From Pusillimonas sp. (GTDB taxonomy: Bacteria > Pseudomonadota > Gammaproteobacteria > Burkholderiales > Burkholderiaceae_B): a stretch of DNA of 64,000 nucleotides. The first letter of the stretch is position 1, and every line of letters begins with the position of its first letter. Positions 27,169-62,488 of this stretch are shown in pieces. Below the pieces are notes generated by a model, which saw only the letters and a program-made list of their open reading frames with translations, searched no databases and was not told the origin of the DNA. The stretch is from NCBI RefSeq assembly GCF_029263785.1, contig NZ_JAJUFE010000010.1, forward strand, positions 1-64,000, given 5' to 3'. The position numbers and the translations under genes are program-made.

Positions 27169-27243
27169 GCCCCCGTAGTTAAATGGATATAACTTTCCCC
27201 TCCTAAGGGAAGATTGTAGGTTCGATTCCTGCCGGGGGCGCCA
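27169..27243 (+). tRNA. tRNA-Arg (anticodon CCT)
   Basis: A 75-nt cloverleaf with the 3' CCA encoded. The acceptor stem is GCCCCCG/CGGGGGC with discriminator G. The anticodon stem TTCCC/GGGAA encloses loop CTCCTAA, giving anticodon CCT, which reads the rare Arg codon AGG. The T-arm is GTAGG-TTCGATT-CCTGC. It stands alone, followed 89 bp later by an enoyl-CoA hydratase gene on the same strand. Confidence 0.97.
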
Positions 27244-36706: not shown

Positions 36707-36808
36707 GGTGGCGGGCCCCTTCGCATGGTCCGGCGGCAAACCTGGTCAGGTCGGGAACGAAGCAGCCATAGTCGCTAAGGGTCAGTGCCGAAGTCAGGCT
36801 CGCCGCCC
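36707..36808 (+). ncRNA. ffs: 4.5S RNA of the signal recognition particle
   Basis: The conserved SRP RNA core, CCTGGTCAGGTCGGGAACGA followed by AGCAGCC, lies at 36741-36767 and contains the GGAA-class tetraloop region and Ffh-binding symmetric loop. The ends pair perfectly: 36707-36717 with 36797-36807 (GGTGGCGGGCC with GGCTCGCCGCC, allowing G-U). This gives one long hairpin of about 102 nt. It sits between the AddA-like gene and dnaX, the usual place of ffs in related species. The exact ends are inferred from base pairing. Confidence 0.92.
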
Positions 36809-45980: not shown

Positions 45981-47297
45981 ATGTCGCAATCCTACTTCCC
46001 CCGCTGGAAACCCGTTATCAATCGGTCTGACGACATGGTGGTGCAGCCTGACGAGTATCTGCCTGCGCCGCAAAGCGTTGCCATGGGCGCCCAGCATGTC
46101 GTCGCCATGTTCGGCTCGACCATCCTGGCACCGCTACTGATGGGTTTTGACCCCAACGTTGCCATCCTCATGTCCGGTATTGGCACGCTCATTTTCTTCC
46201 TGTTTGTCGGGGGAAGGGTACCAAGCTATCTGGGCTCAAGTTTCGCCTTCATTGGCGGAGTGATTGCTGTTACCGGCTACGCAGGTTCGGGGCCCAACGC
46301 CAACATCGGTCTGGCGCTGGGTGCGATCATTATCTGTGGCCTTGTCTACACCCTGATCGGCCTCATAGTGTGGTGGATCAACGCGCGATCGGGCGATGGC
46401 GCGCAATGGATCGACCGCCTCATGCCGCCTGTCGTGACAGGTTCCATCGTGGCCATAATCGGTCTGAATCTGGCCCCGATTGCAGCCAAGGGGGCAATGG
46501 GTGGAAGCACATTCGAAGCGCTCATGGCCTTGGTTACCGTCCTGTGTGTGGGTGGCATCGGCGTGTATACGCGCGGTACCACGCAGCGTTTGCTGATTCT
46601 GGTGGGCTTGCTGCTGTCCTGCGTGATTTATGGGGTGCTGACCAATGGACTGGGATTGGGGGCGCCGCTTGATTTCAGTGGCGTAGCGAATGCGGCCTGG
46701 TTCGGTTTGCCAAGCTTTTCCAGCCCCGTGTTTGATTTTCATGCCATCAGCATTATCGCGCCGGTAGCTATTATTCTCGTCGCTGAAAACCTGGGGCACA
46801 TCAAGGCGGTCAGTGCCATGACAGGTCGGAACCTGGATATATATCTGGGTCGCGCCTTTGTGGGTGACGGTGTGGCGACCATGGTTTCGGGTGCTGTCGG
46901 CGGTACCGGTGTTACCACATACGCCGAAAATATCGGTGTTATGGCCGTGACCCGGATTTACTCATCGCTGGTGTTTGTCATCGCCGCCGGCATCGCCATC
47001 TTGCTGGGTTTCTCTCCGAAATTTGGCGCTCTGATCCAGCTTATCCCGGGCCCTGTTCTGGGCGGTATGTCGGTAGTGGTCTTCGGCCTGATTGCCGTAG
47101 CCGGAGCCCGGATTTGGGTGGTCAACCAGGTAGACTTCAGCAACAACAAGAATCTGATCGTTGCTGCCGTCACGTTGGTGCTTGGCGCCGGCAACTTCTC
47201 GATAGCGTTCGGTGCTTTCAAGCTTGACGGCATTGGCACCGCCACGTTCGGTGCAATCATCCTGCATGCCCTGCTGAGCCTCCGCCAAAAGTCCTGA
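45981..47297 (+). CDS. NCS2 family uracil/xanthine-type permease (UraA/RutG-like)
   Basis: A 438-residue inner-membrane transporter with about 14 hydrophobic segments. NCS2 features are [58 protein letters not shown], the central [18 protein letters not shown] and [19 protein letters not shown], which holds the family's substrate-site Glu. The [11 protein letters not shown] sequence fits UraA/RutG (pyrimidine) members better than purine members. Position just after carAB supports uracil salvage, but this is inference. Its ATG has AAAAGG 10 nt upstream. Confidence 0.88.
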
Positions 47298-47326
47298 AGG
47301 CAGATTTGCAGCGCCTGCAAGGGGGC

Positions 47327-47355
47327 TTGCAATTTGCAGGGATTTTGCGCACAAT
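47327..47355 (+). promoter_or_regulatory. Predicted greA promoter (-35 and -10)
   Basis: TTGCAA (47327-47332), a 17-nt spacer and CACAAT (47350-47355) match four of six bases in each hexamer of a sigma-70 promoter. They predict transcription from about 47362, giving a greA leader of about 190 nt that starts at the first hairpin. Confidence 0.45.
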
Positions 47356-47366
47356 AACTCGTACAT

Positions 47367-47393
47367 CCCCGGTTCCAGGAGAGCCGGGGTTTT
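47367..47393 (+). terminator. First greA-leader hairpin, or terminator of the permease gene
   Basis: A 9-bp stem CCCCGGTTC/GAGCCGGGG (47367-47375 with 47381-47389; one G-U pair) with loop CAGGA runs directly into TTTT. It could terminate the permease mRNA or act inside the greA leader. Its right arm can pair instead with two downstream segments: 47382-47391 with 47469-47478 (10 perfect pairs), or 47384-47393 with 47406-47414 (one bulged G). Confidence 0.7.
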
Positions 47394-47505
47394 GCATTAC
47401 GTCGAAAAACCCGGCGTGTAAAGCAAAGCCACAACAACAACTCAAGACCCAATCTTGTAAAACATATCAACCCCGGCTGCGGTCTGTCGCCAGGGTTCAC
47501 CATCA

Positions 47506-47535
47506 GAGGCGCTCCCTCGTTGCGGAGCGTCTTTT
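47506..47535 (+). terminator. Second greA-leader hairpin, terminator-like attenuator
   Basis: A 10-bp stem (47506-47515 with 47524-47533, GAGGCGCTCC with GGAGCGTCTT, two G-U/T-type pairs) with an 8-nt loop, followed by a T-rich stretch (TTTTACTTT). It ends about 20 nt before the greA ATG and just upstream of its AGGA ribosome site. It is placed to abort transcription or limit translation of greA. Confidence 0.6.
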
Positions 47536-47554
47536 ACTTTCATTCAGGAACACC

Positions 47555-48031
47555 ATGGCTGCCATACCATTGACAGCAAGCGGCGCTGAACGCTTGCAAC
47601 AAGAACTGCATCGCTTGAAAACCATCGAGCGTCCCGAGGTCATCAACGCCATTGCCGAAGCACGTGCCCAGGGCGATCTGTCCGAAAATGCCGAGTACGA
47701 TGCTGCGCGTGAGCGTCAGGCATTTGTCGAGGGACGCATTCAGGAACTCGAAGGTACCTTGTCAAACGCCCAGATCATCGATCCGACGACGCTCGACGTC
47801 GAGGGCACAGCCGTCTTCGGTGCAACAGTCGAAATCGAAGATCTTGAAACCGGCCAGAGGCTCTCGTACCAGATCGTTGGTGACGCCGAAGCGGATATCC
47901 GCTCGAACCGCATTTCGGTTTCCAGCCCTGTGGCGCGGGCCCTCATCGGCAAATCCGAAGGAGACGTCGTCGAGGTCCAGGCCCCCGGCGGCGTGCGCGA
48001 ATACGAAATCGTCAATATCAGCTATATCTAA
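47555..48031 (+). CDS. greA: Transcription elongation factor GreA
   Basis: A 158-residue factor that enters the RNA polymerase secondary channel and stimulates cleavage of backtracked RNA. The N-terminal coiled coil (about residues 8-75) has the catalytic acidic tip in [22 protein letters not shown] (Asp and Glu of GDLSENAEY). The C-terminal FKBP-like domain includes [14 protein letters not shown] and [19 protein letters not shown] chose ATG 47555 ([15 protein letters not shown]) with AGGA upstream. The carAB-permease-greA order resembles the carAB-greA linkage of many Proteobacteria. Confidence 0.97.

Positions 48032-62411: not shown

Positions 62412-62488
<77 letters not shown>

Follow-up and report, generated by a model that had tools for sequence, protein, structure and literature searches.

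The closest described counterpart of the leader examined here is that of E. coli greA, which contains a terminator that stops about two-thirds of transcripts and gives rise, from promoter P2, to the small RNA GraL of 37–47 nt (PMC6829880). The same paper reports that catalytically active GreA raises termination in the leader in vivo, whereas the effect was not observed in vitro and requires an unknown factor. Naville and Gautheret (2010; PMC2965389) also show clusters of greA and rnk leaders from Enterobacteria, bacilli, Pseudomonas and Yersinia, in each of which an antiterminator is clear. Our literature search, which covered mainly open-access papers, returned no description of a tandem greA leader in Alcaligenaceae.

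The window, i.e., the whole 64,000-nt stretch of DNA analysed, carries the gene set carB, a RutG/NCS2-like permease gene (45981–47297), greA and rlmE. The greA gene occupies 47555–48031 on the forward strand, encodes the transcription elongation factor GreA of 158 amino acids (NCBIfam NF001264, 244.8 bits against a cut-off of 180), and has a Shine-Dalgarno sequence, AGGAA, read from the sequence at 47546–47550 on the same strand. Between permease and greA lie, in 5' to 3' order, a promoter-like site, a hairpin (H1) followed by TTTT, a variable middle stretch, a second hairpin (H2) followed by a T-rich tract, and AGGAA. The whole leader has a folding energy of -67.8 versus a shuffle mean of -50.9 (z -3.8), and 1 of 200 shuffles folds equally well. 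An Rfam search of the leader gave zero matches at the gathering score, the initial matches lying far below the gathering scores, so a known Rfam leader or riboswitch was dropped as its identity. At other positions, the window holds a bacterial small SRP RNA (36710–36807) and two tRNAs (27169–27240 and 62412–62485).

Promoter and paired hairpins ahead of greA

The predicted greA promoter (TTGCAA, 17 nt, CACAAT; 47327–47355, forward strand) outscores, at 17.9, every other such site on either strand of the window and is the only one there to reach 17.4; its -35 hexamer lies 29 nt past the permease stop codon. By the general rule of about 7 nt past the -10, the RNA is predicted to start near 47362–47363. 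A search of the window's own genome with the promoter pattern returned one exact match, and the combined promoter–H1 pattern occurs once per genome in all three genomes of the genus.

To place these features in their family, greA upstream regions were compared at 140 same-family loci chosen from 248 genomes with a match, a non-random set made up of 30 best hits, 30 loci for otherwise missing genera and 80 picked by hand. A near-start hairpin, defined as one of at most -10 kcal/mol with a T-tract and an end at -60 to -12, is present at 123 of the 140 greA loci versus 14 of 204 control genes, which were called simply as open frames, their start codons being guessed. The rule for promoter plus H1, the latter a C-rich/G-rich hairpin with a T-tract, is satisfied by 121 of the 140 loci; these are the loci with a promoter score of at least 16, minus nine removed by hand because a hairpin other than H1 had been picked there. 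The CCCCG...CGGGG hairpin is retained by at least five of the loci so removed or overlooked (L090, L093, L121, L135 and L166), while L132 was kept among the H1 loci yet holds an H2-type hairpin instead. Within the 420 nt searched, the CCCCG...CGGGG hairpin was not found at L118, L120, L129, L130, L136 and L141, and at L151 it stands at the far end. In the 300 nt before greA of L151, a 40-nt GC-rich element repeats, as judged by eye, between an H2-like sequence and greA, and these repeats push the hairpin away from the gene.

The promoter is strongly constrained among these loci: its spacer is 17 nt long in 119 of the 121, and 114 distinct family promoters all share TTG, a T at position 18 and A.AAT. 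The spacer (promoter region 47326–47355 in the window) is also unusually constant in sequence, with TTTGCC before the -10, as is GGC ahead of the -35; this constancy could mark a regulator site.

H1 (47367–47389, forward strand) is a GC-rich hairpin of nine pairs, one of them G-U, followed by TTTT at 47390–47393. It qualifies as terminator-like, has an energy of -16.4 kcal/mol in our own hairpin scan, and begins 11 nt past the end of the promoter, whose position is itself predicted from sequence. In the family, the distance from the -10 to the start of H1 is 7–16 nt in 120 of 121 loci and 26 nt in the remaining one, whereas that from H1 to the ATG ranges from 47 to 325 nt. The T-tract behind H1 averages 6.53 T of 8 across the family, versus 0.23 T in the middle stretch, and is conserved although it is mostly distant from the ribosome-binding site. 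In the window, this tract (TTTTGCAT) is weaker than most, with a T score of 3.02, the 16th lowest of 121, where the median is 3.9. The open reading frame preceding H1 varies by locus, being a permease-like end, a carB-like end or neither as judged by eye; H1 thus tracks the promoter and greA, not the upstream gene.

H2 (47505–47542 with its T-rich tract, forward strand; core arms 47508–47515 and 47524–47531) is delimited by the terminator scan at 47505–47534, sits 20 nt ahead of the greA start and has the same energy as H1 in our scan. An H2-type hairpin is present at 107 of the 140 loci, where its end lies 19–40 nt from the ATG and in 100 of the 107 cases at -28 to -20; the H2 position is anchored to greA. 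The H2 pattern occurs once in the window's own genome. Both hairpins are present at 95 loci, 7 to 257 nt apart. H1 thus keeps its place relative to the promoter and H2 relative to the gene, since their spacings are fixed to the -10 and the ATG, respectively, and the middle is variable. The earlier note had described two terminator-like hairpins in this leader, and both are borne out.

Covariation analysis supports both stems. Compensatory changes on both sides are seen in six of eight H1 pairs (17 cells) and five of nine H2 pairs (25 cells). The covariation of H1 is 0.301 versus 0.161 in shuffles and that of H2 is 0.373 versus 0.252, each matched by 0 of 500 shuffles; for H2, 8 of 500 shuffles equal the count of both-sided pairs and 25 of 500 equal the pair-type count. 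The aligned stems pair in 95–96% of cells and slid versions in 33–68%, figures to be read with the rows having been pre-picked as folding hairpins, which inflates paired percentages and favours paired cells. Alignment A1 used 36 of 40 picks (L132, L123, L124 and L210 dropped) and alignment A2 used 35 of 40 (L173, L134, L107, L199 and L125 dropped). Promoter, hairpins, T-tracts, conservation, covariation and fixed anchoring are what the sequences themselves show. Collectively, the greA leader in this family is a real, conserved regulatory leader with predicted terminators, of a known kind but in tandem form.

Proposed tandem termination and competing readings

By sequence and by analogy with E. 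coli, we consider it fairly likely that the window carries an attenuated GraL-type greA leader with two terminators in tandem. From the features above we infer a transcription start, termination, a short RNA and control by GreA, as follows. Transcription would start about 5 nt ahead of H1, and H1, a predicted promoter-proximal intrinsic terminator, would together with its T-tract release part of the transcripts as RNAs of roughly 31–36 nt; in the E. coli precedent, a terminator equally near the promoter does work. Surviving transcripts would traverse the variable middle and reach H2, predicted to be a further intrinsic terminator immediately ahead of the Shine-Dalgarno sequence, so that greA mRNA would result from only a fraction of initiations. 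Such a design would make an antiterminator fold unnecessary: it would provide a fixed leak, which factors that influence RNA polymerase at the T-tract could adjust. Judging from E. coli, GreA would be the most plausible factor, since its cleavage of backtracked RNA could put the polymerase back in register for hairpin release and thereby create negative feedback. This GreA step is the weakest link of the explanation because the corresponding E. coli effect was not reproduced in vitro and requires an unknown factor (PMC6829880). Counting against tandem termination as a whole are the comparatively weak T-tract of the window, competition from a middle hairpin, the pre-selection of aligned rows as folding hairpins and the fact that the design is not general in the class.

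A more specific version, in which the leader is a GreA-sensing tandem terminator independent of E. coli GraL, is put forward tentatively; here H1 would make a 30–40 nt RNA that reports GreA cleavage at the T-tract, and H2 would act as a second gate.

The same elements might instead serve mRNA architecture, with H1, as a 5'-terminal stem-loop, protecting greA mRNA from 5'-end-dependent decay, H2 and its U-rich tract forming a spacer and a landing site for the ribosome (S1) that aids translation, and little termination taking place. In line with this, almost all loci have H1 starting no more than about ten nt from where the RNA is predicted to begin, and a T-rich tract abuts the Shine-Dalgarno sequence both in leaders with H2 generally and in the 11 family loci that have an H1-type hairpin alone, immediately before the start codon. 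However, the T-tract that H1 retains would be superfluous in a 5' protector, and both hairpins qualify as terminator-like. We regard this reading as unlikely and favour termination over mere mRNA protection because the H1 T-tract is conserved mostly far from the ribosome-binding site.

Still less probable, in our estimate, is an insulator function, whereby the hairpins would block transcription arriving from upstream pyrimidine genes (carAB, permease) and any effect on greA's own transcripts would be secondary. The close precedence of carB or the permease, which in the window ends just ahead of the -35, would suit such a role, as would the hairpins found before greA in a wider betaproteobacterial set (below). 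H1, however, stands downstream of greA's own promoter at a fixed spacing, where an insulator would be misplaced, and it persists where the upstream gene differs. A terminator belonging to the upstream gene was rejected on the latter ground.

Alternative pairing and the middle stretch

The earlier note had also proposed that mutually exclusive folds make this leader an attenuator, the right arm of H1 (AGCCGGGGTT, 47382–47391) pairing alternatively with 47469–47478 (AACCCCGGCT) or with 47406–47414 (AAAACCCGG) and so toggling termination. The first match does exist in the window: it is a perfect 10-nt complement on the forward strand, its distal partner lies within a local hairpin at 47469–47497, and when the middle stretch is dinucleotide-shuffled, 0 of 200 versions reach a run of 10 nt. 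For the second, pairing is possible by eye with one bulged G, but the longest ungapped run is only 6.

The first pairing is, however, not conserved. By the refuting test that the earlier note itself had set, the proposal fails on covariation: a complementary run of at least 10 was found in 1 of 91 loci, namely this window, and the two same-genus genomes have longest runs of 5 and lack the pairing. At p<=0.05 the pairing is detected in 4 of 91 loci, where about 4.6 are expected by chance. Folding points the same way, as forcing the pairing costs 3.7 kcal/mol (-68.3 versus -72.0) and its top pair probability is 0.017. Moreover, RNA polymerase would already be past the H1 decision point because transcription reaches 47469–47478 only some 75 nt beyond the H1 T-tract, and neither H2 arm is involved. 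No leader ORF shared with the congeners was found, the window having a 9-codon TTG frame and the congeners none or an unrelated one; a leader-peptide attenuator was rejected for want of a counterpart to this frame. A classical attenuator with antiterminator was likewise rejected, there being no conserved mutually exclusive pairing. Sequence comparison thus indicates that fold switching in the greA leader is not conserved and probably reflects chance, and as a mechanism for this leader we hold it to be very improbable.

A stronger competitor of H1 in the window, according to the folding model, is the middle hairpin at 47391–47427 (forward strand), a species-specific element of the minimum free energy fold that can also absorb the H1 base together with the T-tract. 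In the full leader, the outer pair of H1 has a probability of 0.10, the middle hairpin competing for the H1 base. Congeners L083 and L084 did not show the same fold. This hairpin, too, is made after the H1 decision point; were polymerase to pause for long, it could conceivably play a part. In 13 family loci (L088, L091, L092, L095, L098, L100, L101, L103, L106, L108, L109, L146 and L150), a hairpin between H1 and H2 bears the loop motif ACAGC[TC]A[TA]AA, which is absent from the window, and its stem changes seem compensatory by eye.

That the hairpins arose by chance and have no role is barely credible: hairpins of -10 kcal/mol or better with terminator-like features do occur in the window at about 0.8–0.95 per kb on each strand, but the conservation across the family, fixed anchoring and covariation speak against it.

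Comparison with other greA leaders

A wider betaproteobacterial set, largely from outside the Alcaligenaceae but with three records labelled Alcaligenaceae or Bordetella among them, has a near-start hairpin at 40 of 79 greA loci. A -10-like hexamer stands just before the hairpin in 12 of the 38 non-Alcaligenaceae loci having one, where 1.1 are expected. At ten loci (L021, L031, L034, L037, L039, L042, L050, L052, L069 and L075), GCATAAT is followed 9–16 nt on by a hairpin with a T-tract right before greA; these leaders are possibly a one-hairpin version of the same idea. Leaders of the Comamonadaceae type in the greater Burkholderiales resemble those of the family in having CATAAT (10 of 12) and then a hairpin and T-tract before greA, but they differ in having a single hairpin, distinct in sequence and, in the examples examined, immediately following carB.

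Among 80 other families of the class, sampled out of 109 genomes with a match, a greA hairpin ending at -60 to -12 is present in 4, with a shuffle average of 1.4; for ends at -200 to -12 the count is 7 of 80, compared with 5.3 in shuffles and 12 of 80 for an equal interval further upstream. A class-wide greA terminator was rejected, as hairpins near greA are no commoner than in controls. Few intermediates between the E. coli and family leaders appear in the class sample. An origin independent of E. coli GraL is likely because only 4 of the 80 sampled families have a greA-near hairpin; the design is lineage-bound and, counting E. coli, such leaders probably arose more than once.

The E. coli system poses a puzzle, in that termination raised by GreA in the protein's own leader is reported as seen in vivo, not in vitro (PMC6829880). 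The family leader, a seemingly separate solution from another lineage and a better conserved one, offers a minimal natural test bed for whether GreA senses itself via promoter-close terminators; at its simplest it comprises just a promoter, a hairpin, a T-tract and a start codon. Its consensus, backed by covariation, can also serve to annotate greA leaders of this family, where Rfam models gave no match. Should the GreA-sensing reading be true, unrelated lineages would have converged on an intrinsic terminator immediately behind the greA promoter as an inbuilt gauge of transcript-cleavage capacity.

Set against the described leaders, those shown by Naville and Gautheret (PMC2965389) have antiterminators, whereas none is conserved in the family leader by the complement test. 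The comparison with E. coli GraL that the earlier note had made is supported by greA's own predicted promoter and the two terminator-like hairpins; a terminator-like hairpin with a T-tract in the greA leader, the mark of the GraL type, is found in the window and the family alike. The two systems share the gene and the lack of a simple antiterminator switch (PMC6829880), and the intrinsic terminator near the promoter in the E. coli leader has a predicted counterpart in H1. The short RNA is 37–47 nt for P2-derived GraL versus a predicted 31–36 nt or so here, and both it and the GreA response are reported for E. coli and proposed by analogy for the family leader. The hairpin sequences differ by eye, and the family leader is set apart from E. 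coli GraL by a single, strongly conserved promoter type and by a second terminator-like hairpin before the Shine-Dalgarno sequence.
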